A stretch of 64,000 nt of DNA, from positions 124,001 through 188,000 of the forward strand of contig NZ_RJMV01000004.1 of assembly GCF_003943735.1 (NCBI RefSeq), given 5' to 3'. This stretch comes from Streptococcus sanguinis (lineage in GTDB: Bacteria > Bacillota > Bacilli > Lactobacillales > Streptococcaceae). The translations under genes and the position numbers were made by a program. The notes beneath the pieces were generated by a model. The model was not told the origin of the DNA. It did not search any database and was given only the letters and a program-made list of their open reading frames with translations. The stretch's first letter is position 1; each line of letters starts with the position of its first letter. Positions 2,743 to 17,807 of this stretch are shown piece by piece.

Positions 2743-3750
2743 CTATTTAATCACTTGTCCTGCTTCTTTCAAAACATCTTCTGGCACAGTAATGCCAAGT
2801 TCTTTGGCATTTTTGGTATTGATAACAGATTTACCAGTATCAAAAATATCTACTGCAGTATCAGCAGGTTTAGCACCTTTTAAGACTTTAGCTGCCATTT
2901 TACCAGTCGCAACACCTAGGTCATACTGGTCTACAACGACAGAGGCAAGACCACCTTCTTCTACCATGGCTGTTGCACTTGGATAAATCGGTTTCTTAGC
3001 TTCTTTATTGCTGGACACAACTGTCGCAAAAGCTGATGCAATGGTATTGTCAATTGGAATCCAGATAGCGTCAACCTTGCCAGTCATGACATTCATGGTT
3101 GATGCAATTTCATTGGTTGAAGGAATAGAGTATTCCTCTACCTTGTAGCCTGCCTCTTCAGCCAATTTTTTGAACTCTTCTACCTGAGCTTTGGAGTTGT
3201 CTTCGCTGCTAGAGTATAGCGCACCTATAGTCTTAACATCTGGAGTTAATTTTTTAATCAGCTCTAACTGTTGCTTGGCTGGATTGCGGTCAGAGACACC
3301 CGTGATATTGCCACCTGGCTTGTCCAGATTTTTCACTAGGTTTGCTCCGACTGGATCTGTGATAGCTCCCATGACAATAGGCTTGTCCTTAGTAGCTGCA
3401 GCCAGTCCTTGGGCAGACGGAGTTGCAATCCCAATCAGCACATCATTTTCATTGGAAACCAGCTGTTTGCTCATAGTAGAGACCTTACTCTGATCGCCCT
3501 CAGCATTCATAAAGTCAATCTTAATCTTGTCGCCCTTATAGCCTTCCTCAGCCAGACCATCCTGAATCCCCTTGTAAATCAAATCCAGCGAAGGGTGGCT
3601 GACATACTGCAGCACGCCTACCTTGACTGTCTGACTGTCGCCACTAGTCTTAGTGGTGTTTCCTTTGCTGTTCAAGCTGGAATAGACAATCCCACCGATT
3701 GCCAAAATGGCCAGAAGGCCTAAGATAGTTATTAATCGTTTATTTTTCAT
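2743..3750 (-). CDS. trpX: tryptophan-type ABC transporter substrate-binding protein (TrpX-like)
   Basis: A 335-residue protein of the ABC_sub_bind family. It has an N-terminal membrane segment (about residues 7-25), a Ser/Thr/Lys linker, and a two-lobed periplasmic-binding fold starting at VKVGVLQYVSHPSLDLIYKG. There is no lipobox cysteine, so it is probably held by an uncleaved N-terminal anchor. Family members of this type in streptococci (TrpX) are linked to tryptophan uptake, and the leader upstream is a T-box with a UGG-compatible specifier, which supports tryptophan. The permease and ATPase partners usually found next to trpX are missing: the following genes are a terminator and an AbrB-like gene. 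The ribosome site GGAGAAAG precedes the ATG. Confidence 0.85.
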   Translation of the reverse strand: MKNKRLITILGLLAILAIGGIVYSSLNSKGNTTKTSGDSQTVKVGVLQYVSHPSLDLIYKGIQDGLAEEGYKGDKIKIDFMNAEGDQSKVSTMSKQLVSNENDVLIGIATPSAQGLAAATKDKPIVMGAITDPVGANLVKNLDKPGGNITGVSDRNPAKQQLELIKKLTPDVKTIGALYSSSEDNSKAQVEEFKKLAEEAGYKVEEYSIPSTNEIASTMNVMTGKVDAIWIPIDNTIASAFATVVSSNKEAKKPIYPSATAMVEEGGLASVVVDQYDLGVATGKMAAKVLKGAKPADTAVDIFDTGKSVINTKNAKELGITVPEDVLKEAGQVIK

Positions 3751-3845: not shown

Positions 3846-4096
3846 AGCAACAAAAAACCTCACACAGGTATTCTGTGTGAGGGCGAAAATCGCGGTGCCA
3901 CCTCAATTATGGAAAATAGCTAATATTCCCATATCTCTATCTTGTCATCAAACAAGCTGCACTGTAAGGTGTGCCCACCGAATTCTTATTGTTTCAAATT
4001 CATTTTATCAATTAGCCCAACTTCGTAAAGATTTGCTGCTCATTTCCACCAACCACAAGCTCGCTAAAAACAAATTCATCTACTACTTTTCTAATT
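3846..4096 (-). promoter_or_regulatory. T-box leader of the trpX-like gene (tryptophan-type)
   Basis: On the minus strand the T-box core GAGGTGGCACCGCG (about 3890-3904) is followed by a terminator hairpin, CCTCACACAG pairing with CTGTGTGAGG (3859-3882), and a T-run. Upstream, a GAAGUUGGGC stretch offers UGG at 4019-4017 as the Trp specifier, and an AGUA-type motif sits near the start of the leader. Established T-box behaviour predicts read-through when tRNA(Trp) is uncharged. The core and terminator are seen directly; the specifier is inferred. Confidence 0.88.
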
Positions 4097-4102
4097 TCCT
4101 AT

Positions 4103-4131
4103 ATTTTAAGTTTTTCCTGAAAAGATGTCAA
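4103..4131 (-). promoter_or_regulatory. promoter of the trpX T-box transcript
   Basis: A consensus -35 TTGACA (4131-4126) and a -10 TAAAAT (4108-4103) with a 17-nt spacer, immediately upstream of the T-box leader. It lies just after the end of the ABC permease at 4174, where no terminator is visible, so read-through from the sigma-factor block is possible. Confidence 0.75.
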
Positions 4132-4173
4132 GACCTTTTTGAAAATTTTTATAAAATGTTCGGATTTGACTAC

Positions 4174-5358
4174 TCAAGCAAATTTCCAATTTTTAGCATG
4201 AAAATAAGATATTATCTTCAATGCAAAAGCCAAACCGATTAGAAAACTAAAAACGAAGAGACTATTTATGATAAAATCTTGAAAAAAATATTCCTTATTC
4301 GAAGCAAACAGTCCTAATAGTTTTCCGACTGACTGCTGATTGATTGGAAAAAGATAAAGTAGTTTTTGAGCAACTCCTTCTCGAAAAATCTGAGCTAAAA
4401 AATAGGGCAACAAATACAGACTAATAGAAAATGACAAGACAGACAAAGGAGAGTTTAGCAGAGAGGACATCAATAATGTTACTCCCGCTGTAAAAAGAAG
4501 CCCTGTAAATTGTAAGCACAAAAACCAAAAGTAAACTTGTAGATGATTCCACTCCAATGGAAAACTGAATAACCCCAAATCTAAGTTAGTCTGAATACTA
4601 GAACTCCATCCACTAGTATCATACATACTAGAAAATACAAAATAAGTGACCATTTGAAAAACTATAAATAGTACAAAAGTCAAGAGGAAAGCCACTCCAA
4701 TCTTGGCCCTTATCAGTTTATTACGGCCATATTTAGTTGTCAACAATACTTGATTCATATTTTTAGCCTTATCGTCTGAAAAAATCAAAGAACAAACTAA
4801 AATGACTAGAATAGAAACTAAAATCGAAACATTTCCCTGAACTTTATATAAATCAAGCCAAGGTGCATAATTGCCAATTTTTAGAGGTTTCCCAAACTCT
4901 TTAAAACCAAGATCCTTAATGCTACGTACTTCTATGTCTTCAATCGTCAACATTTTTCCTTTTTTCACACGTTCCATCTGCTTTTCATAAAGATGACGTG
5001 CGTCTTTGACAAAAACATCACTTATCTGTTCTGTAAAGAGATAAAATGGATGAAAGAGCCAAGGTTCTCCTTTCTCTTTCCAACTTCCATCATCAGAAAG
5101 TTCTCTCTCTTGAAATTTTTTGAGATCGTCTGCTATAATCCCTCGAATTTTATCATCTGTAAACTCCCCTCTATAACTCTGTTCAATATCTTTGGAATAG
5201 CCATGTGCAACATTGTCTCTCGCTGCAAATTGATACTGAGAATAATGATAGCCTATGAAAAAAATACCAGCAAGTAGAAATAAACTTGCAACAAAACTTC
5301 CCAAAATCGTTTTGTTCTTTAGAATTTTTTGAAATTCAAATCTAATAAGTGTCTTCAT
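4174..5358 (-). CDS. ABC-2 family permease with large extracytoplasmic loop
   Basis: A 394-residue membrane protein. The first membrane segment (about residues 18-36) is followed by roughly 130 hydrophilic residues (YSQYQFAARDNVAHGYSKDI onward) that should lie outside the cell. Five more segments follow between about residues 175 and 385. This layout is typical of ABC-2 permeases related to bacteriocin-immunity or lantibiotic-type exporters. Its start overlaps the end of the ATPase gene by 17 nt. It is the last gene of the sigma-factor block and shares its low GC content. The substrate is unknown. Confidence 0.8.
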   Translation of the reverse strand: MKTLIRFEFQKILKNKTILGSFVASLFLLAGIFFIGYHYSQYQFAARDNVAHGYSKDIEQSYRGEFTDDKIRGIIADDLKKFQERELSDDGSWKEKGEPWLFHPFYLFTEQISDVFVKDARHLYEKQMERVKKGKMLTIEDIEVRSIKDLGFKEFGKPLKIGNYAPWLDLYKVQGNVSILVSILVILVCSLIFSDDKAKNMNQVLLTTKYGRNKLIRAKIGVAFLLTFVLFIVFQMVTYFVFSSMYDTSGWSSSIQTNLDLGLFSFPLEWNHLQVYFWFLCLQFTGLLFTAGVTLLMSSLLNSPLSVLSFSISLYLLPYFLAQIFREGVAQKLLYLFPINQQSVGKLLGLFASNKEYFFQDFIINSLFVFSFLIGLAFALKIISYFHAKNWKFA

Positions 5359-6226
5359 CCCGCATCTCCTCTCTAAAATAATAGAGATACAAATCTTCTA
5401 AAGTTGGGCTAACCAAGGAAGCCTTCGGGATTGGAGCTTGTTCAGAAACAATTCTCATCACGATATGTTGACCATCCTGGCGGCGATTGCTCACAAGAAA
5501 AGTCTCTTCTAATTTATTAGCCTCACATTCTGTTACTTCACATTCCCAAACCTTGTCAGATATTTCAGAAACTAATTGATTAACCGTTCCTCTATCTCGT
5601 AAACGCCCATTTTTTAAAATCAAAATTTCGTCAGCGATACTTTCGACATCTGATACAATATGGGTCGATAAAAGAATGATTTTTTCCTTTGATAAACTAC
5701 TTAATAACTTTCGGAATTTAACCCGTTCTTTAGGATCTAGTCCAACTGTTGGCTCATCTAACACAAGAACTTGAGGATCGTTTAAGAGCGCTTGTGCAAT
5801 TCCTAATCTCTGCTTCATTCCACCAGAAAGTTTTCTAATTTTTTTATTTTTGATAGCAGATAAGCCAAGCAAATCTAATAATTCATCGCTTGTTGTAGAA
5901 GCATTTTTTCGACTCAACCCTTTTAAAGAGGCAATATAGAGTAGAAAATTTCTAGCAGTAAAGTCAGGATAATATCGAAAATCCTGTGGTAAAAAACCTA
6001 AAACATCTCTAAAATTTTCTGCTTGATTAACTATATTTTTTCCGTTAAAGAAAACAGCTCCCTGAGTAGGCTTCATGAGACCACAAATAATCCGAAAAAG
6101 CGTCGTCTTTCCTGATCCATTCGAACCTAAAAGTCCGTAAAGTCCTGGTTTTAATGAAATGGAAACATAATCTAATACCAACTTGTTTCCATATTCTTTT
6201 TTAATGTTTTTAAGACTGAGTTCCAT
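5342..6226 (-). CDS. ABC transporter ATP-binding protein of the sigma-factor block
   Basis: A 294-residue ATPase with Walker A GSNGSGKTTLF, signature LSGGMKQRLGIAQAL, Walker B VLVLDEPTVGLDP and switch histidine LLSTHIVSDVESIADE. The C-terminal ~80 residues after the nucleotide-binding domain are family-typical for ABC-2 exporter ATPases. The start codon lies inside the last codons of the membrane-protein gene behind GGAGGAATG, so translation is coupled. It presumably powers the permease encoded next. Base composition is clearly more AT-rich than that of fbpA or the genes beyond. Confidence 0.87.
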   Translation of the reverse strand: MELSLKNIKKEYGNKLVLDYVSISLKPGLYGLLGSNGSGKTTLFRIICGLMKPTQGAVFFNGKNIVNQAENFRDVLGFLPQDFRYYPDFTARNFLLYIASLKGLSRKNASTTSDELLDLLGLSAIKNKKIRKLSGGMKQRLGIAQALLNDPQVLVLDEPTVGLDPKERVKFRKLLSSLSKEKIILLSTHIVSDVESIADEILILKNGRLRDRGTVNQLVSEISDKVWECEVTECEANKLEETFLVSNRRQDGQHIVMRIVSEQAPIPKASLVSPTLEDLYLYYFREEMRDEDTY

Positions 6227-6959
6227 TCCACATTCCTCCTGCTGTCAATTTTTTTAATTGTTTAAAGAACAAAAGTACGAGAATCAAAAGAGATATTAAA
6301 TAAGTTAGGAACCAATAAATAACAGCCATACGATAAGGATTGAATAGATTCAAAGCTACAAATAGAATTAAAAGAGCCATACCCAAAACGAACCATGCAC
6401 TACGATGATTGCCAGAATTTCTCCAACAAGAGAGAGAATAAAACAAAACAATACAAACAATATTATAGGGGACTAACAAATACAGTAACATACTAAAAAA
6501 AGAAAATCCAAAGAGTAAGTTTGTTAATATAGAAAAGCTCAGAACAATCAAAAAATCAATAAAGCCAAAAATAAAGAGTTTCACTAATACATGCTGGCGT
6601 AAATCGTACTTGAAAGTTTGCTCTAATTCCCACATTCCAGATGTAAAACTTTTAAATAATTCCTCCATAAAGAAAAGTAGAGAGATTATTAGCAATCCTG
6701 TTAAATTTTTTATTAGAGTATAAACGAGACCGAGCGGATTGTTTAATATAACTAATAAGCTGATTCCCAATACTGCGAACTGAATCAACCAAGTTTTTAA
6801 ACTAATAAACCGAATAGTAAAAAGAGCCAATTCCAGATAAGAAATCATCTTTTTCTGACTTTTCAGATGAGCAACACCGAGTAAAAGAACCTCTTTTTTT
6901 CTAGATTCATCAACTTCTAATTGATAATTTTTTAAACGTTCAATAACTTTTTTCGTCAT
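6210..6959 (-). CDS. integral membrane protein encoded between an ECF sigma factor and an ABC exporter (possible anti-sigma factor)
   Basis: A 249-residue protein I cannot assign to a named family. The first ~45 residues are charged and cytosolic (TKKVIERLKNYQLEVDESRK). Six hydrophobic segments follow (about residues 65-82, 85-105, 135-160, 160-178, 188-205 and 210-232), then a short basic tail. Its start overlaps the sigma-factor gene by 20 nt (ATG at 6959 behind GAGG; an upstream in-frame TTG is a poorer start). A membrane protein coded directly after an ECF sigma gene with a cytosolic N-terminus is the usual layout of an anti-sigma factor, but no zinc-binding anti-sigma motif (HxxxCxxC) is visible. 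It could instead be a third transporter subunit. Confidence 0.55.
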   Translation of the reverse strand: MTKKVIERLKNYQLEVDESRKKEVLLLGVAHLKSQKKMISYLELALFTIRFISLKTWLIQFAVLGISLLVILNNPLGLVYTLIKNLTGLLIISLLFFMEELFKSFTSGMWELEQTFKYDLRQHVLVKLFIFGFIDFLIVLSFSILTNLLFGFSFFSMLLYLLVPYNIVCIVLFYSLSCWRNSGNHRSAWFVLGMALLILFVALNLFNPYRMAVIYWFLTYLISLLILVLLFFKQLKKLTAGGMWNGTQS

Positions 6960-7500
6960 AAGCAAATGCCTCTTTATCTAAGAACTTTGACAGTTTTACA
7001 AGCCCTTGATGAATTCGGGACTGAGCAGTTGGAACACCTACACCTGTAATCTTTGCAATATCCTTAACCTTTAAATCATGGTAATATCTCAAAATAATAG
7101 CCTCTCTTTGAGAATTTGACAACTGATTTAAGGCGTGTTGAATTACCTTATTTTCTTCGTTAACTACTAAATTTGTCATACCATCGCTTTCGTGAGAAGA
7201 TAAAACACTTTCGTTGAATTCAACTTTTTCTATTTCTTTCTTTTTATAATGGTTATTACAATGATGAACAGCAATTGTGAATAGATAATTATGAAATTTC
7301 CCTGTAAAACGATAGTTTTTGATATTTTCTATCACTTTAAGAAAAATATCTTGCGTCAAATCTGCTGCTAACTGGACATTACCATAACATCTGCGTACAC
7401 AGTAAAAATAGATAGAGTGATAATACTTCTCAATCACCCTTTCCCACGCATTTTGGTCTCCATTTTTTATCTTTTGAATTAAAATATAATCTTCAAACAT
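6940..7500 (-). CDS. RNA polymerase sigma factor, ECF (sigma-70 region 2/4) family
   Basis: A 186-residue protein with sigma region 2 (ADLTQDIFLKVIENIKNYRF, about residues 45-70) and region 4 with helix-turn-helix (LSNSQREAIILRYYHDLKVK, about residues 130-175). No regions 1 or 3 are present, which fits the extracytoplasmic-function class. An in-frame ATG 11 codons upstream exists, but GATGGAG lies 7 nt before the ATG at 7500 (MFEDYILIQKIKNGD), so that start is preferred. It heads a four-gene overlapping block with a membrane protein and an ABC exporter. Streptococci rarely carry ECF factors; the low GC content suggests acquisition. The signal and regulon are unknown. Confidence 0.85.
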   Translation of the reverse strand: MFEDYILIQKIKNGDQNAWERVIEKYYHSIYFYCVRRCYGNVQLAADLTQDIFLKVIENIKNYRFTGKFHNYLFTIAVHHCNNHYKKKEIEKVEFNESVLSSHESDGMTNLVVNEENKVIQHALNQLSNSQREAIILRYYHDLKVKDIAKITGVGVPTAQSRIHQGLVKLSKFLDKEAFAYDEKSY

Positions 7501-7620
7501 TCTAGCTCCATCTATATTTAAATTCCTTCTCACTACTATATTAACAATTTTTATATAAAAATCATTTAATTTTTTAAAAATTTTTTGTCAAAAAATTTAG
7601 AAGCTTTTAGCTTGGTTTTT

Positions 7621-9494: not shown

Positions 9495-12400
9495 TTAGTC
9501 TTCAGACTTTTTCTTCCTCTTCTCTAAGCCAAACAGTCCCAAACCTGATACTCCCGCAAGCAAGCTTGCTGCTAAATATGAGGTTTCTTCTGTACCAGTC
9601 TTAGGAAGGGATTTTGCATCCTCACTCTTAGAAAGAGATGGTGGTGCAGGCGTAATCGTCCGCTCTGGCTGAACAGGATTTTCTGTCACAGTCGGAACAT
9701 AAACTGCTGAAATAGTTTGACCATTACGGTCTTTGCGAATCACTGTCACACCATCAGCTTGGCCGACAAAGCCAGTTTCCGGTACAAAGGTCACAGTGCC
9801 ATCTGGCGCAATCGTATAAGTACCTTGACCTGGAACAATCTTTTCGGTGCTGCCATCCTCGAATGTTGGCGGAACAGTTGGATCCACGTCGCCTTCAAAG
9901 ATAGGCTTGCCGGTTTGAGACTGGCCTTTGAGACCGGTGCTGCCGGTATCTTCTGTAGCAGTGCTTCCCAAAACAGTTGGGGTATAGGTAGCCATCACGG
10001 CATTGCCATAAATATCTGAACGCTTCACGACGACTCCACGAGCAGTTCCGACAAAGTCGGCTTCTGGCACAAAGGTTATTGCTCCCAGAACGGTAAATCT
10101 ATACGTTCCCTCACCTGGGACAACCTTTTCGGTGCTGCCATCCGCAAAGGTTGGTGCCACCGCCTGATCGATCGCCCCTTCAAAGGTTGGCGTGCCCGTT
10201 TGAGCTTGGCCCTTGCGGCCGCTAGATACACTGTCCTGACTGGTTGATGGTTCAACTACGGTCGGAATATAGCGAGCCGTCACTGAGCTACCGTTCTTAT
10301 CACGACGGACAAGAGTCACACCAGTACCCTGACCAAGGAAATCAGCATCTGGAGTGAAGGTCACTGTACCGTCTGGTGTGATGGTATAAGTTCCTTGACC
10401 TGGAATTGTTTTTTCCTTACTTCCATCTTCGAAAGTTGGCGCAATTGTTTCATCAATTGGAACTAGTGGATCACCTGCTTCGAAGATAGGTTTGCCAGTT
10501 TGAACATGGCCCTTGATATTTGTAGATGTAGCATCTTTACCAGTTGGAGTTACCTTGGCGAACTCTGGACTGTATGTCGCAGTTACTGGAGTGCCATTCT
10601 TATCAACACGTTTTACAGTGATTGGATCTGGCTTGCCTACAAACTGCTTATCTGGCGTGAAAGTGACTGCTCCATCTGGAGCAATCGTGTAAGTTCCTTG
10701 ACCTGGAATGGTCTTCTTCTTGCTGCCATCTTCGAAGCTTGGCTCTACTAGGTCATCAATTGGAACCAGTGGGTCACCACCTTGGAAGGTTGGGGTACCC
10801 ATTTGAGGAACACCTTGAGGACCAGTGCTGGTCGCATTGGCACCTGTAGGAATCACTTCTTTCACTACTGCTTGGTACTTGACGGTAACAGCGGTGCCAT
10901 TGGCATCAGTGCGTGTCAATTCGAGTTCTGGTGTTTCACCCTTGAACTGTTTATCTGGGGTAAAGGTTACCTTGCCATTTGCATCCACTTCGAACTTACC
11001 GACATTCGGTACTTCTTTGACAGAAGAACCATTGTCAAATAACGGAGTTGAACCAGCTGGGAATGGAACAGAGTCATGGCCTGGGGTGAAGGTGACTTTT
11101 CCTTCTTGAACCTGACCCTGCAGGCCTTCTGTCTTCTCACCAGTTCCTGTAGGAATCACTTTCGTAAACTCTGGACTGTAGGTCGCTGTCACTGGTGTGC
11201 CGTTCTTGTCAACACGTTTCACAATTACTGAATCTGGCTTACCTACAAACTGCTTGTCTGGCGTGAAAGTCACTGCGCCATCTGGAGTGATGGTGTAAGT
11301 GCCCTGGCCTGGAATCTTCTTCTCCTTACTTCCATCTTCGAAAGTTGGCTCTACTGAGCCATCAATTGGAACCAGTGGATCGCCGCCTGCGAAGGTCGGT
11401 GTGCCAGTTTGAGGGACACCTTGAGGACCGGTGCTTGTTGCATTGGTGCTGGTTGGCGTAACCTTAGTAAACTCTGGACTGTAAGTCGCAGTCACTGGTG
11501 TGCCGTTCTTATCAACACGTTTCACAGTGATTGGATCCGGTTTACCTACATACTGCTTGTCTGGGGTGAAGGTCACTACGCCATCTAGAGCAATCGTGTA
11601 TGTTCCTTGACCTGGAATGGTCTTCTTCTTGCTTCCGTCGTCGAAGCTTGGTTCAACGATTTCATCGATTGGAACTAGTGGATCGCCTCCTTGGAAAGTT
11701 GGGGTGCCAGTTTGCGGAACACCTTGAGGACCAGTGCTCGTTGCATTGGTACCCGTTGGAGTTACCTTGGTAACAGTCGGCGTATAACTAGCAGTCACTT
11801 CCGTGCCGTTCTTATCAACACGTTTCACAGTGATTGGTTCTGGTGTACCAACATATTGTTTTTCAGGTGTGAAAGTCACTGCGCCATCCGGAGTGATGGT
11901 ATACGTTCCTTGACCCGGAAGTGTCTTCTTCTTGCTTCCATCTTCGAAAGTTGGCTCAACTGTTTCATCAATTGGAACTAGTGGATCACCACCCGCAAAG
12001 GTTGGAATGCCAGTTTGAGGGACACCTTGAGGACCTGTGCTAGTCGCATTGGTGCTGATTGGAGTTACCTTGGTAACGGTCGGTGTATAAGTAGCAGTAA
12101 CTTCAGTACCATTCTTATCCACACGTTTCACAGTGACTGGTGTTGGTGTACCAATATACTGTTTCTCTGGAGTAAAGGTAACAGAACCATCTGAGTTGAT
12201 AGTGTATTCCCCTACTCCCTGAACAGTCTTCTTAGACTGACCGTCTTCGAAGGTCATCGGACTATCCATATCAATTGGAACAGCAGAATCGCCAGGAGTG
12301 AAGGTAGGTGTCCCCTTTTGTGGTTGACCTTGAAGGCCAGTTGATTCAGCATTGGTGCCAGTTGGAGTTACCTTGGTAACTTCTGGGGTATAGGTAGCAG

Positions 12401-15400
12401 TTATTTCTGTACCGTTAGCATCGACTCGTTTAACCGTAACAGGTGTCGCCTTGCCAGTGAATTGCTTATCCGGAGTGAAGGTAATGGAACCATCTGAATT
12501 AATGGTATAAGTTCCTTGATTAGCCACTACCAAAGTATCAGTCCCATTTTCAAAGGTCATTGGCTTGGTCATATCGATTGGAACCGCTTGGTCACCTGGA
12601 CTGAAAGTTGGCTTGCCACTTTGCGGTTGACCTTGAAGGCCAGTTGATTCAGCATTGGTGCTAGTAGGCATTACCCGTGTTACCGTTGGCGTATAGGTAG
12701 CAGTCACTTCTGTTCCGTTTTTATCTACACGTTTAACAGTAACTGAAGCTGGGGTCCCCACATACTGTTTGTCTGGGGTAAAGGTGATAGTACCATCTGA
12801 GTTGATGGTATATTCCCCTACTCCTTGAACCGTCTTCTTAGGTTGACCATCTTCAAATGTCATTGGAGAATCCATATCAATCGGAACAAGTGGATCACCA
12901 CCTTGGAAGCTTGGGCTACCTGTTTGCGGAACGCCCTGAGGACCTGTGCTAGTCGCATCGGTGCCTCTTGGAACCACTTCTTTCACTACTGCTTGGTATT
13001 TGACTGTAACAGGAGTGCCATTGGCATCGGTGCGAGTCAATTCAAGCTCTGGTGTTTCCCCCTTAAACTGCTTGAGTGGGGTAAAGGTAACCTTACCATC
13101 AGAGTCCACTTCAAACTTACCGACATTTGGCACTTCTTTCACTGTTGAATTATTATCAAATAGCGGAGTCGAACCAGCAGGGAACGGAACAGAGTCGTGC
13201 CCTGGGGTGAAGGTCACTTTACCTTCTTGAACTTGACCTTGCAGGCCTTCTGTCTTGTTTCCAACACCAGTTGGCTTTACAGCCGTTACTGTTGCTTGAT
13301 ATTTTGCCTTAGCAAGGGTACCGTTGACATCTGCACGACTGACTTCAATTTCTGGCGTTTTACCTACGAATGTCTTAACCGGTGTAAAGGTAATATTACC
13401 ATCAATATCCACTTCAAACTTGCCAACATTTTCAATTTCTTTCACATTAGTACCAGTGTCAAAAACTGGGGAATTATCTGCTGAAAAACCAACTTCTGGT
13501 CTTCCGGCTTCAAAAGTAATCTTACCATTCTGAACCAATCCTTGTGGACCTTCAGTCTGATCGCCAGTTGCGTTTGGAATAACTTCTTCAACAGTAGGAG
13601 TATATTTAGCTGTCACTTCGGTTCCATTCGCATCTACACGTTTGACCGTGACTGGTGTTGCCTTACCAGTAAATTTCTTCTCCGGCTTAAAGGTAATGGA
13701 ACCATCTGAATTAATCGTATAAGTTCCTTGATTAGCTACTACCAATGTGTCAGTCCCATTTTCAAAGGTCATTGGCTTGGCCATATCGATTGGGACTGCT
13801 TGGTCACCTGGGGTAAAGATCGGCTTGCCGCTTTGTGGTTGTCCTTGCAGGCCTGTTGACTCAGCATTGGTGCTAGTTGGTGTGACCCGTGTTACCGTTG
13901 GCGTGTAAGTAGCAGTAACTTCAGTGCCATTCGTATCTACACGTTTAACTGTAACTGGTGTTGGTGTGCCCACATATTGCTTTTCTGGAGTGAAAGTAAT
14001 CGAACCATCTGACTCAATGACATAAGTACCGACCTTATCTACCTTCTTAGTTGTTTGATTATCTTCAAAGGTCATTGGTTGGGCTATATCAATCGGCACA
14101 GCTTTGTCACCCGCAGTAAAAGTAGGTGTACCTGATTGTGGTAGACCTTGAAGACCAGTGCTAGTCGCATTGGTACCTGTAGGAACCACTTCTTTCACCA
14201 CTGCTTGGTATTTGACTGTAACAGGAGTGCCATTCACATCTGCTCGAATCAATGTCAGCTCAGGAGTGGTTCCCTTAAACTGCTTGTCTGGCGTGAAAGT
14301 AACCTTACCATTAGCATCCACTTCAAATTTACCAACGGTTGGAATCTCTTTTACAGTCAAACCATTGTCAAAGAGCGGAGTTGTTTCAGCTGGGAATGGT
14401 ACAGAGGCATGACCTGGGGTGAAGATAACATGACCTTCTTGAACCTGACCTTGCAATCCTTCTGTCTTATCACCAGTACCAGTCGGAGTTACCTTGGTAA
14501 CAGTTGGCGTATAGGTTGCTCTTACTTCTGTGCCATTTTCGTCAACTCGTTTGACCGTCACCGCGGCTGGGGTACCCACATATTTCTTATCTGGAGTAAA
14601 GGTAATAGATCCATCTGAATTGATGGTGTATTCTCCCACGCCCGCAACAATCTTCTTAAGTTGATCATTGTCAAAGGTCATTTGCTTGTTATAGTCAATT
14701 GGGACCGCTGGGTCGCCTTCCTTGAAGACCGGCGTTCCTGTTTGTGGCACCCCTTGAGGACCTGATGAAGTAGCAGATGTGCTGGTTGGTGTGACCTTGG
14801 TCACGTTAGGTGTATAGGTAGCAGTCACTTCTGTGCCGTTGGCATCTACGCGTTTAACCGTAACTGGTGTCGCCTTGCCAGTGAATTGCTTAAGCGGCTT
14901 GAAGGTAATGGTATCATCTGAATTGATAGTATAAGTTCCTTCATTGGCTATTTCCAAGGTATCCGTCCCATTTTCAAAAGTCATGGCTTTGCTCATGTCA
15001 ATTGGGATTTGTTGGTCACCTGCAGTGAAAGTTGGCTTACCACTTTGTGCTTGACCTTGAAGACCAGTTGATTCAGCATTGGTACTTCTTGGCGTTACTT
15101 GGGTTACCTTAGGTTGATAACGTGCTCGGTGTGCTTTACCGTCGGTATCACTGACTTGAACTACCACTGGGTCTGGCGTGCCATAAAAAGTCTTGATAGG
15201 CTTGAAGGTCACTTGGCCGGTATTTGGATCCAATTCATAGGTTCCCACTTGCTGGCCATTGGCCATGGCAGGCACCGTATTTTCTGTTACCAGTCGTCCA
15301 TTCGCATCCACAAAGCTAGCCGGACGAGTAGCTTCTGGCATGACAGGGGTCGTATTCGCATCATCATCATTAAAGACTAGCGTTTTATTTTGTTCCAGTC

Positions 15401-17807
15401 CCTGAAGACCACTTGATTCGTAGTTTGGAATCTTACGGACTGTTGGCACATAACGGCCGTCCATGTTATTCAACTGATCATTTTTATTAGGGTCAGAAGC
15501 ATCCGTCGAAGTCCAACCAGTCGAGGTGCCATTGCTGTCAGTCCAACGAATATTAATTCCGTCAGCAGTTCCAGAAAAGGCAGCATTTGGTGTGAAGGCA
15601 ACTTGCACGTCATTGTCCTTGATGGTCAAGCGATAGGTCCCTTCTGGACGAATATAGTTGCCATCAACGGCTGTCAGAACTTGGCCTTGCTTATCCAAAA
15701 CCTGAGGCGCTTGGGTGCTCATAACTGCATTGATACTATCGTCTGAGCGATCCGTTCCTTTAGGTGTGAAGTGAAGGACAGCAGTTTGAGTCTCACCTGT
15801 AAAGCCGTCCGTAGTCTGCTTCTCCCCCTTAGGAGGATAAATGCGGTGTAAGAGCATATCTTCTACTTCACCACTAAAGGCAATACCGGTTGGTTGTTCA
15901 ATATCACCTTTATTAGTCGCAATTCGGAAACGCATACCCAATTTGTCCACTTGGCCACCAATAATATTTGGGTTGGCATTGAAGGTCAAGGTATAGTCAC
16001 CAGCAGCTGTAATCTCTTGTAGGTTGCTACCTTCGCTTTCATTAAAGACTCCATCATTATTGAAGTCTATCCATGCCTTGACATAAGATTTAGCATTGCC
16101 ATTTGGGTTAGCTTTGATTTTAATTGTGTAAGTTCCATTTTTTGCTTTGTCTAAATCAAGCAAATCATTAGAAGCACTTAATTGATCGTCCGCTAGTAAT
16201 TGGCTTGCCCCCTCGTCCTTGTGTTCCTTTTTATCATCCAGAACCCAATTATTAGCTGTATCAACATCAATGTCTGCTGGAGTAGTCCCTAAGTAAGGCT
16301 GATTAATTAACTTACCAGTCAGAGAATCACGACCTGAAATGGTATGGAAGGCTTCGCCATAAGTCGCTGGCGCATCACTGCCATCCACCACTAAGAATCC
16401 CATCATCATAGCCTGTTGCCCAGATGATGCTACATAGAAACCTACTTCAGATGCCCCACGCGTCATCACCACAGGAACCGTCCGTTCGTTAGAGCGGTTT
16501 GGCCCAAAGACCTGAGTCCCCAAGCCACCTGTCACTGTATCCGGACTGAGGTATTTATACCAGTCTACGCTTGTATCTCTTAAGATTAAGAGACCTCTTC
16601 TCTTTACATTTTCATCATCCAACATTTGCTTGGTAATAACGGTATAGGCTTCTTTGGCAGTACTCTTATTCTTCCATTCACCGAGATATTCCCATCCTTC
16701 TCCGTTAGTAGTGAAGATAGCAAATTCACCTGGGTTGGCATCTTCACCATCGGCCATAACCACCGTAGGGGCTACGCGCTTGCCTAGATAGGTAGCTTCA
16801 ATTTGGAATTTTACTCCCCAGTTGGTTGAGTTCTCTGGGTAAACCAGCTGGGTCTTTCGTCCTTGCGTATTGAACCCTTGATCACGAATGGCAGTCCATT
16901 GATTCTGAATAGCTCCTGTCACCGAAGGAGGGGTTTGACCATACTTTGCTGCAGACTTTAAATATCCATTCTGAGCATTTGGGTCATAAGTATTTGCTGT
17001 CGGTGTTCCTTCAACCCGTTTTCTATAAGTTTCAGTCGAGTTAAAAGGTTTAAGCTCAGTGACCGTCAGGGTTACTTCATAGCCCGGTGAAATTTCCTTT
17101 TTGAAGGTAGTTCCTACTTGGAGTCCGCCTCGTGAATCCAATCCTTTCCAACTTGCAGTATCCGAAAAATCAAGCCAAGTAATCTGTTTGGCTAATTGGG
17201 TACTATCTTTCTTGACAGATTCCTCCAAGCTTGGTTTAGGTACTCGTGGCGTAGAGGTAGCATCATCTGCCCCAGCTGGTCCAGTACCTATCGTAACTCC
17301 TGTTGTTACGCTGTTCTGTTGTCCAGTAGGTGTAGCATCCCGTCTCACACGACGAGAGCGATTAGGCTGAGATACATCTGCTATTGCTTCTGACTTTTCA
17401 GCCACGACAGCCGCGTTAGATATTTCTGGGTGAACAGTGATTGGTTGAGTATTCTCAACTGGTTTAGTTGCTGTAGATTCAGTAGATTCTCCAACTTTCT
17501 CAGACTCTGAGCTTCTGGGACTAGGATTATCATCTGATTGAGGAATCTCAGTAGCAAAAGCAAGTGCTGAACTTTCTTTTGCTTGTATATGTTCAGAAGC
17601 AACAGTTTCAGCAGAATTCACTGATGATTCGGCTATTCCTGTTTGCGAAACTTCGTTTTGGACACCAGAATCACTAGCTTCGTCAGCACTAACTTGTGCC
17701 GCTGCTCCCAAAAGAAGCAGGGTTGACAAGAGCACAGAACAAACACCGACGTTTAGTTTTCGAATCGAAAACTTACGCAGGTGAGGATTAAATAAATCTT
17801 TTCCCAT
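9495..17807 (-). CDS. CshA-family fibrillar surface adhesin, 2770 residues (csh copy 1)
   Basis: A giant LPXTG protein. Residues 1-42 are an FSIRK-type signal peptide (KFSIRKLNVGVCSVLLSTLL). A disordered Ser/Thr/Glu-rich stretch follows to ~170, ending in the basic motif RSRRVRRD. A non-repetitive region (~200-650) has a lectin-like part and a GEVED domain (DFNNDGVFNESE, then FSGEVED). Two divergent and then 18 regular ~101-residue CshA fibril repeats run from ~656 to ~2705. A sorting signal SLPKTGTEE (~2732), membrane segment and KRKKK tail close it. CshA of S. gordonii (about 2500 residues) forms peritrichous fibrils binding fibronectin and other bacteria through its non-repetitive N-terminus; the same role is inferred here. 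ATG behind GGAGATT; own promoter and terminator. Confidence 0.95.
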   Translation of the reverse strand: MGKDLFNPHLRKFSIRKLNVGVCSVLLSTLLLLGAAAQVSADEASDSGVQNEVSQTGIAESSVNSAETVASEHIQAKESSALAFATEIPQSDDNPSPRSSESEKVGESTESTATKPVENTQPITVHPEISNAAVVAEKSEAIADVSQPNRSRRVRRDATPTGQQNSVTTGVTIGTGPAGADDATSTPRVPKPSLEESVKKDSTQLAKQITWLDFSDTASWKGLDSRGGLQVGTTFKKEISPGYEVTLTVTELKPFNSTETYRKRVEGTPTANTYDPNAQNGYLKSAAKYGQTPPSVTGAIQNQWTAIRDQGFNTQGRKTQLVYPENSTNWGVKFQIEATYLGKRVAPTVVMADGEDANPGEFAIFTTNGEGWEYLGEWKNKSTAKEAYTVITKQMLDDENVKRRGLLILRDTSVDWYKYLSPDTVTGGLGTQVFGPNRSNERTVPVVMTRGASEVGFYVASSGQQAMMMGFLVVDGSDAPATYGEAFHTISGRDSLTGKLINQPYLGTTPADIDVDTANNWVLDDKKEHKDEGASQLLADDQLSASNDLLDLDKAKNGTYTIKIKANPNGNAKSYVKAWIDFNNDGVFNESEGSNLQEITAAGDYTLTFNANPNIIGGQVDKLGMRFRIATNKGDIEQPTGIAFSGEVEDMLLHRIYPPKGEKQTTDGFTGETQTAVLHFTPKGTDRSDDSINAVMSTQAPQVLDKQGQVLTAVDGNYIRPEGTYRLTIKDNDVQVAFTPNAAFSGTADGINIRWTDSNGTSTGWTSTDASDPNKNDQLNNMDGRYVPTVRKIPNYESSGLQGLEQNKTLVFNDDDANTTPVMPEATRPASFVDANGRLVTENTVPAMANGQQVGTYELDPNTGQVTFKPIKTFYGTPDPVVVQVSDTDGKAHRARYQPKVTQVTPRSTNAESTGLQGQAQSGKPTFTAGDQQIPIDMSKAMTFENGTDTLEIANEGTYTINSDDTITFKPLKQFTGKATPVTVKRVDANGTEVTATYTPNVTKVTPTSTSATSSGPQGVPQTGTPVFKEGDPAVPIDYNKQMTFDNDQLKKIVAGVGEYTINSDGSITFTPDKKYVGTPAAVTVKRVDENGTEVRATYTPTVTKVTPTGTGDKTEGLQGQVQEGHVIFTPGHASVPFPAETTPLFDNGLTVKEIPTVGKFEVDANGKVTFTPDKQFKGTTPELTLIRADVNGTPVTVKYQAVVKEVVPTGTNATSTGLQGLPQSGTPTFTAGDKAVPIDIAQPMTFEDNQTTKKVDKVGTYVIESDGSITFTPEKQYVGTPTPVTVKRVDTNGTEVTATYTPTVTRVTPTSTNAESTGLQGQPQSGKPIFTPGDQAVPIDMAKPMTFENGTDTLVVANQGTYTINSDGSITFKPEKKFTGKATPVTVKRVDANGTEVTAKYTPTVEEVIPNATGDQTEGPQGLVQNGKITFEAGRPEVGFSADNSPVFDTGTNVKEIENVGKFEVDIDGNITFTPVKTFVGKTPEIEVSRADVNGTLAKAKYQATVTAVKPTGVGNKTEGLQGQVQEGKVTFTPGHDSVPFPAGSTPLFDNNSTVKEVPNVGKFEVDSDGKVTFTPLKQFKGETPELELTRTDANGTPVTVKYQAVVKEVVPRGTDATSTGPQGVPQTGSPSFQGGDPLVPIDMDSPMTFEDGQPKKTVQGVGEYTINSDGTITFTPDKQYVGTPASVTVKRVDKNGTEVTATYTPTVTRVMPTSTNAESTGLQGQPQSGKPTFSPGDQAVPIDMTKPMTFENGTDTLVVANQGTYTINSDGSITFTPDKQFTGKATPVTVKRVDANGTEITATYTPEVTKVTPTGTNAESTGLQGQPQKGTPTFTPGDSAVPIDMDSPMTFEDGQSKKTVQGVGEYTINSDGSVTFTPEKQYIGTPTPVTVKRVDKNGTEVTATYTPTVTKVTPISTNATSTGPQGVPQTGIPTFAGGDPLVPIDETVEPTFEDGSKKKTLPGQGTYTITPDGAVTFTPEKQYVGTPEPITVKRVDKNGTEVTASYTPTVTKVTPTGTNATSTGPQGVPQTGTPTFQGGDPLVPIDEIVEPSFDDGSKKKTIPGQGTYTIALDGVVTFTPDKQYVGKPDPITVKRVDKNGTPVTATYSPEFTKVTPTSTNATSTGPQGVPQTGTPTFAGGDPLVPIDGSVEPTFEDGSKEKKIPGQGTYTITPDGAVTFTPDKQFVGKPDSVIVKRVDKNGTPVTATYSPEFTKVIPTGTGEKTEGLQGQVQEGKVTFTPGHDSVPFPAGSTPLFDNGSSVKEVPNVGKFEVDANGKVTFTPDKQFKGETPELELTRTDANGTAVTVKYQAVVKEVIPTGANATSTGPQGVPQMGTPTFQGGDPLVPIDDLVEPSFEDGSKKKTIPGQGTYTIAPDGAVTFTPDKQFVGKPDPITVKRVDKNGTPVTATYSPEFAKVTPTGKDATSTNIKGHVQTGKPIFEAGDPLVPIDETIAPTFEDGSKEKTIPGQGTYTITPDGTVTFTPDADFLGQGTGVTLVRRDKNGSSVTARYIPTVVEPSTSQDSVSSGRKGQAQTGTPTFEGAIDQAVAPTFADGSTEKVVPGEGTYRFTVLGAITFVPEADFVGTARGVVVKRSDIYGNAVMATYTPTVLGSTATEDTGSTGLKGQSQTGKPIFEGDVDPTVPPTFEDGSTEKIVPGQGTYTIAPDGTVTFVPETGFVGQADGVTVIRKDRNGQTISAVYVPTVTENPVQPERTITPAPPSLSKSEDAKSLPKTGTEETSYLAASLLAGVSGLGLFGLEKRKKKSED
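9672..15840 (-). repeat. fibril repeat array of csh copy 1 (2 divergent + 18 regular units, ~303 bp each)
   Basis: Units open with a GLQG or GPQG turn (e.g. TGTNATSTGPQG) and end with a strand such as VTATYTPTVTKVTP. Two sequence classes alternate. One has VPIDETVEPTFEDGSK then VTVKRVDKNGT; the other has VPFPAGSTPLFDNG then GKFEVDANGKVTFTP. The last three units are shorter and more diverged (QTGTPTFEGAIDQAVAPTF). I counted the units by eye from the translation. Confidence 0.85.

Follow-up and report, generated by a model that had tools for sequence, protein, structure and literature searches.

In Bacillus subtilis, the autoregulated operon sigY-yxlC-yxlD-yxlE-yxlF-yxlG encodes an extracytoplasmic function (ECF) sigma factor, membrane-borne negative regulators in the form of three small proteins (YxlC, YxlD, and YxlE), and the ATPase and permease of an ATP-binding cassette (ABC) transporter. 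A study by Tojo from 2003, cited in PMC3498285, is reportedly the source for the regulation of SigY by YxlC, YxlD, and YxlE, and in Bce-type modules, in which a transporter is joined to a two-component system, the exporter is said (Dintner, 2011) possibly to sense for its own regulation. To our knowledge, ECF sigma factors are hardly known in streptococci. Here we analyzed 64,000 nucleotides of Streptococcus sanguinis (the window; positions 124,001 to 188,000 of contig NZ_RJMV01000004.1 in assembly GCF_003943735.1), in which a block of four minus-strand genes with overlapping frames (window positions 7500 to 4174) encodes an ECF sigma factor, a six-segment membrane protein (here called Mem), an ABC ATPase, and an ABC-2 type permease. 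We consider it probable that this block is an autoregulated cassette of an ECF sigma factor, a membrane anti-sigma factor, and an ABC exporter, working like SigY-YxlCDE-YxlFG.

One source (PMC4326333) names YxlC as the anti-sigma factor of SigY, YxlD as a component, and YxlE as a negative regulator. The window cassette resembles the SigY operon in that an ECF sigma factor is followed by membrane-borne negative regulators (in the window a candidate one) and then by an ABC ATPase and permease, and differs in layout by having one six-segment protein where B. subtilis has three small ones. A second counterpart is found in Streptococcus mutans, where the LytTR systems SMU_433/434 and SMU_1070c/1069c comprise, according to PMC6193735, a regulator gene, then a membrane inhibitor gene, and cotranscribed ABC transporter genes; the membrane protein holds autoregulation off, and four of the five S. 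mutans LytTR inhibitors carry DUF3021 or DUF2154. The regulator there is a LytTR transcription factor, whereas that of the window is a sigma factor, and none of the 41 Mem proteins compiled below matched DUF3021 or DUF2154. Class I and II anti-sigma factors (RsiW, RseA; CnrY) are described in PMC7406223 as cognate partners of ECF sigma factors that are often membrane bound; one or more transmembrane (TM) segments occur in about 65% of class I factors, and in CnrY two short helices can suffice. Unlike these, Mem has six TM segments, no recognized anti-sigma domain, and a linkage to an ABC exporter. With Bce-type modules the cassette shares an exporter that is possibly the sensor of its own regulation, but those modules employ a histidine kinase and a response regulator, whereas the cassette uses a sigma factor and flux sensing is only proposed for it.

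Gene content of the cassette

The products named for the four overlapping genes in a preliminary description of the locus were borne out by their open reading frames and Pfam matches (Sigma70_r2, Sigma70_r4_2, ABC_tran, and ABC2_membrane_2). The sigma factor (minus strand, 7500 to 6940) has 186 amino acids when read from ATG 7500 and 197 when read from GTG 7533; ATG 7500 is probably the true start, because it is preceded by GGAG, while GTG 7533 sits just downstream of the predicted promoter at 7540 to 7569. In the numbering of the 197-residue frame, Sigma70_r2 (8.9e-12) covers residues 34 to 99 and Sigma70_r4_2 (1.2e-14) residues 131 to 181, with no match to a sigma3 model, which is the domain makeup of an ECF factor. 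The protein passed NCBIfam model TIGR02937 (87.3 bits; cutoff, 42.9); its second-best NCBIfam match, SigY (PRK09638), reached 100 bits and did not pass the equivalog cutoff of 194. Its nearest PDB sequence is SigW (5wuq; 2e-23), and it matched nothing but itself in its own genome at E ≤ 0.001.

The mem gene (minus strand, 6959 to 6210) encodes 249 residues from ATG 6959, with TTG 6965 as an alternative start. The ATPase (minus strand, 6226 to 5342; 294 residues; PF00005, 2.3e-32) is DrrA-like, scoring 198.9 bits against TIGR01188 drrA (cutoff, 312.45), and also resembles lantibiotic-protection ATPases (TIGR03740), again below the cutoff. The permease (minus strand, 5358 to 4174; 394 residues) matched PF12679 ABC2_membrane_2 at 32.5 bits (cutoff, 27.2), so that genes 3 and 4, with PF00005 and PF12679 above cutoff, constitute an ABC-2 exporter. 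The large outer loop ascribed to the permease is consistent with the sequence at about residues 43 to 175, between TM1 and TM2; a sequence search of PDB gave no match to this protein. PADLOC returned generic-looking matches of the ATPase and the sigma factor and nothing else.

Distribution and gene order of the operon

Within the genus, Mem was detected in 4 of 197 genomes (its own included). The counts were 4 of 345 for the order, 9 of 398 for the phylum (one of these 9 spurious), and 9 of 105 for a second family belonging to the order; for orders from other classes they were 8 of 73, 3 of 20, 1 of 4, 14 of 197, and 2 of 5. The genome sets overlap and the queries differ between sets. In a modification of the preliminary account, the operon of sigma factor, Mem, and exporter is confined neither to the strain nor to streptococci, since it is found again elsewhere in the order and in further classes of the phylum. 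The Mem family itself has no Pfam or NCBIfam entry.

We compiled 41 loci (L) from 39 genomes (G) of the phylum, leaving out L031 (G680; stop codons, no neighbors), the partial matches L038 (G930) and L084 (G1038), and L100 (G733); the Subdoligranulum locus described below is not counted among them. In 40 of the 41 loci the gene immediately upstream of mem, on the same strand, is the sigma gene; the exception (L094) is at a contig end. An ATPase gene follows mem in 40 loci (none was found in L091) and a permease gene is present in 39, the other two (L027 and L030) running off their contigs. This gene order is kept beyond chance. If mem is read from the start codon closest to the sigma stop, which biases the count toward overlap, its frame overlaps that of the sigma gene in 36 of 40 loci. 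In a tree of the joined sigma, Mem, and ATPase sequences (37 loci), the 13 loci of the window's order grouped together (100/100), and so did the four streptococcal loci (91/85). Two genomes each carry two different copies of the cassette (G864, L028 and L059; G1079, L085 and L088).

No relatives of Mem were found in viral contigs in four scans, and none in plasmids with the Mem of the window or of L062 as the query. One plasmid record, from Subdoligranulum variabile, was found with the Mem of L066, and as the best match with the sigma factor. Phage records gave, among the matches listed (best 20 of 41), sigma factors only, at <60% identity.

A predicted autoregulatory promoter

Upstream of the sigma gene we read by eye a bipartite motif composed of TTAAATGATTTT, 12 bases, and GTTAAT or GTTCAT (GTTMAT). 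The window carries it as an exact match, TTAAATGATTTT-N12-GTTAAT, on the minus strand at 7540 to 7569, and the same site is identical in Streptococcus gordonii DD07. With at most one mismatch allowed, each of the 13 operons in the window's order has the motif at its head: before the sigma gene in 10 (L007 to L010, L024, L061, and L063 to L066) and before an operon-leading acyltransferase gene in 3 (L023, L062, and L067), with sites before both genes in L063. Per match at the 13 operon heads, 0 of 200 Markov-shuffled controls was as good. Where the acyltransferase leads, the sigma gene itself has no site (L023 and L062; 7 mismatches) or a weak one (L067; 3 mismatches), and the downstream acyltransferase gene of L009 has none.

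A whole-genome scan is the better test of the promoter than the count at operon heads. In the window's own genome the single exact copy is that at 7540 to 7569 (G000:C4:131540-131569), and two further sites have 2 mismatches, both of them in the GTTMAT box. Among 13 genomes carrying the system, 8 have exact sites, 9 in total and every one at the system, and the remaining 5 have a one-mismatch site at that location; 13 control genomes without the system contain no exact site. One-mismatch sites elsewhere number 4 in the 13 system genomes and 1 in the 13 controls, and G974 has one more at the system. The site at the operon head is conserved and, when exact, genome specific, and 7540 to 7569 is likely the autoregulatory promoter of the cassette. 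The description of the block as a self-contained module agrees with this likely autoregulation and with the sole exact genomic copy lying at the cassette.

In many loci of other classes, inspection suggested a related pair, AAA-C/T-n-A/T-TTTT and, after about 12 bases, CGTTAT or GGATA. An unsupervised two-box search of 40 upstream regions, run without a shuffled control, gave nearly equal information for spacings of 11 to 14 (14.2 to 14.4 bits) and 13.7 bits for a spacing of 10; outside the order, the form given for the promoter is thus one read by inspection.

A membrane acyltransferase gene is joined to the sigma operon in five genomes (L023, 7052-8062; L062, 5948-6982; L063, 5945-6985; L067, 5897-6916; and L009, 10763-11836), with the promoter at its head in the first four. 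The product was Acyl_transf_3 (PF01757) in all four tested of the five, which points to envelope modification.

Mem and its relation to the sigma factor and the exporter

The Mem of the window matched no Pfam or NCBIfam family at E ≤ 1; among the 41 family members, 3 matched DUF5985 at E ≤ 0.01 (best, 5.4e-5) and the remainder nothing in either library. Hydropathy (a profile read by eye, not from a TM predictor) gave six TM segments with both termini inside, which bears out the preliminary account of six segments, a charged N terminus, and no known motif. Basic regions are the N terminus (about 52 residues), the TM4-TM5 loop, and the C terminus, while the TM2-TM3 loop has about three Lys/Arg and no net positive charge across the family. 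The N terminus is variable, and many members from other classes show a Y-x-V/I-P turn between two likely helices, which recalls the N termini of Firmicutes anti-sigma factors. Class I anti-sigma factors have a recognizable domain of at least 50 residues, often with HxxxCxxC; no such domain was recognized in Mem, and its residues 1 to 52 contain no Cys and so no HxxxCxxC. Nothing credible was found for Mem by sequence in PDB. By these tests the cassette belongs neither to SigY nor to the class I anti-sigma systems, and it likely functions like them.

The most conserved part of Mem is the TM2-TM3 loop, GMWELEQTFKY. In hhalign comparisons the stretch GMWELEQTFKY..RQ...K aligned in register with the TM2-TM3 loop of the permease, NMNQVLLTTKYGRNKLIRAK, with Mem as the query (score, 27.4 to 27.6; E, 0.004; probability, 7 to 9%) and with the permease as the query (24.0; E, 0.015; 3%). 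None of 252 column-shuffled or reversed controls reached 27 (maximum, 25.1). On average, 39 single permeases scored higher with Mem than did 23 other polytopic proteins (17.0 versus 13.3; top of the latter, 17.6; P = 1e-5, with related rows); for an acyltransferase family the scores were 13.3 against Mem and 18.3 against the permease. The preliminary description had counted an alignment of Mem with an ABC permease against its proposal, and such an alignment was found in weak form, as a subthreshold profile match. This suggestive likeness leaves room for Mem as a transporter subunit too.

Co-divergence was computed as partial correlations of distances over the 37 loci having all four genes, with 300 subsamples. 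Raw distances gave 0.43 for sigma factor and Mem (subsample 5 to 95% range, 0.31 to 0.53), 0.72 for Mem and permease, and 0.45 for Mem and ATPase (subsample medians, 0.42, 0.72, and 0.45), and the other three gene pairs lay within 0.1 of zero. By this measure Mem behaves as a link between the sigma factor and the exporter.

The alternative that survives best sees Mem chiefly as part of the transporter, in the role of a diverged ABC-2-like half that pairs with the permease on the ATPase; the sigma factor would then be under some other control, e.g., solely through its own expression or through an unlinked protein. This alternative draws on the aligned loop, on the higher average score of permeases, and on Mem codiverging most with the permease in raw distances. 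We nevertheless regard it as unlikely, since the hhalign probabilities are low in both directions, none of the 41 Mem proteins matched an ABC-2 permease model at E ≤ 0.01, the other ABC-2 permease of the window does not align at the Mem loop (score, 14.8), and 11 of the 41 loci encode at least two permeases in addition to Mem, so that Mem is not needed there as a second half; the strict adjacency of the sigma gene and mem would also be left unexplained. The fixed gene order, the overlapping frames, and the partial co-divergence make Mem as the keeper of the sigma factor, as first proposed, the best reading, although the contact between the two proteins is still a matter of inference.

Several results weigh against Mem as an anti-sigma factor and against the cassette as the sole target of the sigma factor. 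None of the 41 Mem proteins matched any anti-sigma model in Pfam or NCBIfam at E ≤ 0.01, and the same library detected zf-HC2 or RskA_C in two proteins adjoining other ECF genes (positive control). AlphaFold2 predictions of Mem from two sequences (window and S. gordonii) had a predicted local distance difference test score of 49.4 and a predicted template modeling score of 0.26, too poor for a fold search. Kimura distances lowered the correlation of sigma factor and Mem to 0.27 (Mem and permease, 0.73; Mem and ATPase, 0.43), and ranks blurred the pattern (sigma factor and Mem, 0.42 to 0.50; sigma factor and permease, 0.29 to 0.37; Mem and permease, 0.18 to 0.25; permease and ATPase, 0.23 to 0.26). 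The sigma factor correlated at 0.58 to 0.80 with the N terminus of Mem and at 0.71 to 0.87 with its TM part; since it is no closer to the N terminus, co-divergence does not locate the contact. The counting of the promoter motif used the very loci from which the motif had been derived, and the 13 include several close relatives. With up to 2 mismatches, the system genomes contain 81 sites against 32 for the reversed pattern, about 15 of the 81 at the system, while the 13 controls contain 45 against 41; two-mismatch sites occur at about 1.5 per megabase in the system genomes (sites at the system left out) and 1.2 in controls, a small excess. Weaker further targets of the sigma factor beyond its own operon are possible.

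Acquisition by transfer and surroundings

The cassette occupies approximately 4172 to 7595, between the T-box/TrpX-like gene and rqcH/fbpA. Its G+C content (GC) is 0.326, compared to 0.444 in 16,640 flanking bases, in line with the AT-rich block first noticed. Six further rqcH regions were compared. In three relatives with flanks 90 to 93% identical (G008, G009, and G017), the block is absent at the same site and mem is nowhere in the genome; the empty site joins approximately 4167-4171 to 7578-7596 of the window, with 26 to 50 bp between. The more distant G024 (flanks, 72%) also has both neighbors without the block, and G021 and G019, with other genes beside rqcH, were uninformative. The borders show no conspicuous repeat of a mobile-element type.

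DNA identity between the window and S. gordonii DD07 was 94.2% for the block, 90.8% for rqcH, and 84.0% for the aligned part of the trpX-like gene. Synonymous divergence (dS) between the two was 0.19 for the sigma gene, 0.24 for mem, and 0.19 for the permease gene, compared to 1.16 for the trpX-like gene and 0.50 for rqcH; the latter two genes differ by 0.31 to 0.33 from those of G009, the closest relative compared. Because its dS is lower and its identity higher than those of the flanks, the block seems to have been shared with S. gordonii DD07 more recently than its surroundings. AT richness is not a trait of the family, since block and flanks differ in GC by at most 0.05 in 30 of 37 nonstreptococcal loci (exceptions include L088, −0.125; L089, −0.097; and L028, +0.102), while the four streptococcal blocks lie 0.04 to 0.12 below their flanks. 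The S. variabile plasmid record OY725840.1 (L167, 172-12516), typed as nonmobilizable, has a relaxase gene (PF03432) on one side of its copy of the operon and a serine recombinase gene on the other, with a CD1107-like mobile-element protein nearby; the copy comprises all four genes, with the sigma frame at 6106-6546 and mem at 6543-7316, followed by those for the ATPase and the permease. In L085 a resolvase-domain gene is close to the cassette. Acquisition of the cassette by transfer, as originally suggested, is supported by the empty site in three close relatives, the GC shift, the closeness to S. gordonii DD07, and the copy beside mobile-element genes. Presence in every related genome with normal base composition, which the preliminary description had named as speaking against its proposal, contrasts with the 4 of 197 genomes and the GC shift found.

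The ratio of nonsynonymous to synonymous divergence (dN/dS) between the window and S. gordonii DD07 is 0.13 to 0.15 for the sigma, mem, and permease genes, indicating purifying selection and speaking for a working operon. Movement of the cassette between genomes and the likeness of its ATPase to drug and lantibiotic-protection ATPases could also fit an exporter for immunity or detoxification whose use of an ECF sigma factor is incidental, with Mem as an accessory immunity protein, as LanE/LanG-type subunits are, and not as a regulator. We hold this to be very unlikely, as the sigma gene adjoins mem wherever the locus extends far enough on that side and no peptide-synthesis or modification gene was evident among the neighboring frames listed, in which no systematic search was made. 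Least probable, we think, is a decaying import without present function, to which the patchy presence in the genus and the ATPase split over two frames in S. gordonii DD07 (L007, 6643-7487) would be suited, given the four intact frames of the window, the low dN/dS, and the identical promoter in the two species.

Next to the cassette, a T-box leader (RF00230; 98.2 bits; minus strand, 3876 to 4109) precedes the gene for the TrpX-like ABC substrate-binding protein (minus strand, 2743 to 3750); the permease and ATPase genes that follow the latter in S. gordonii DD07 (L007) are missing in the window and in L161 to L163. A second cassette (minus strand, 631 to 2562), with a DrrAB-like ABC exporter and an AbrB-like small gene, lies between pheS and the TrpX-like gene (the AbrB-like and pheS names were assigned by eye). 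No DrrAB-like or AbrB-like frames were found between the corresponding positions in L161 to L163, and because the second cassette is absent there, the spot near the TrpX-like gene may take up exporters repeatedly. Farther along, a gene on the minus strand (9495 to 17807) encodes a 2,770-residue surface protein with many repeats and an LPKTG end.

Discussion

In the cassette that we propose, Mem, made together with the sigma factor from overlapping frames, would at rest hold the sigma factor at the membrane through its basic N terminus (about 50 residues). When the membrane complex meets a substrate or envelope damage, Mem would free the sigma factor, which would bind RNA polymerase and transcribe the cassette from 7540 to 7569; more exporter would be made, the substrate removed, and the switch reset. 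Elsewhere in the order, some genomes also have this promoter in front of the membrane acyltransferase gene. The binding of the sigma factor by Mem, a part of the exporter in sensing, the signal, and the cargo are what we infer in this scheme.

More tentatively, Mem might be a transport-coupled anti-sigma factor, an ABC-2-like subunit seated in the exporter through its TM2-TM3 loop and carrying a sigma-binding tail, so that the working state of the exporter would directly free the sigma factor. Such an ECF system would sense flux, the transporter itself being the sensor, and would have spread through the Bacillota on mobile elements; we think it possible but doubtful.

The kinds of components are known, and what is new is the Mem family and the promoter, neither of which was met in the literature searched. 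Nor did that literature describe a comparable ECF/ABC operon in a streptococcus, and an earlier listing within the ECF classification is possible. The cassette gives streptococci a movable, intact ECF unit complete with a likely promoter, an exporter, and, from an unnamed family of membrane proteins, a candidate keeper; the exporter cassette is the only exact-site target of the sigma factor in the window's genome. If the exporter is the sensor, sigma-factor signaling and transport would be joined in one complex. The sigma factor seems to act mainly on its own cassette, which makes Mem a testable candidate for a new kind of sensor; the promoter string can be used as a reporter, and the 41 loci provide a family to work on.

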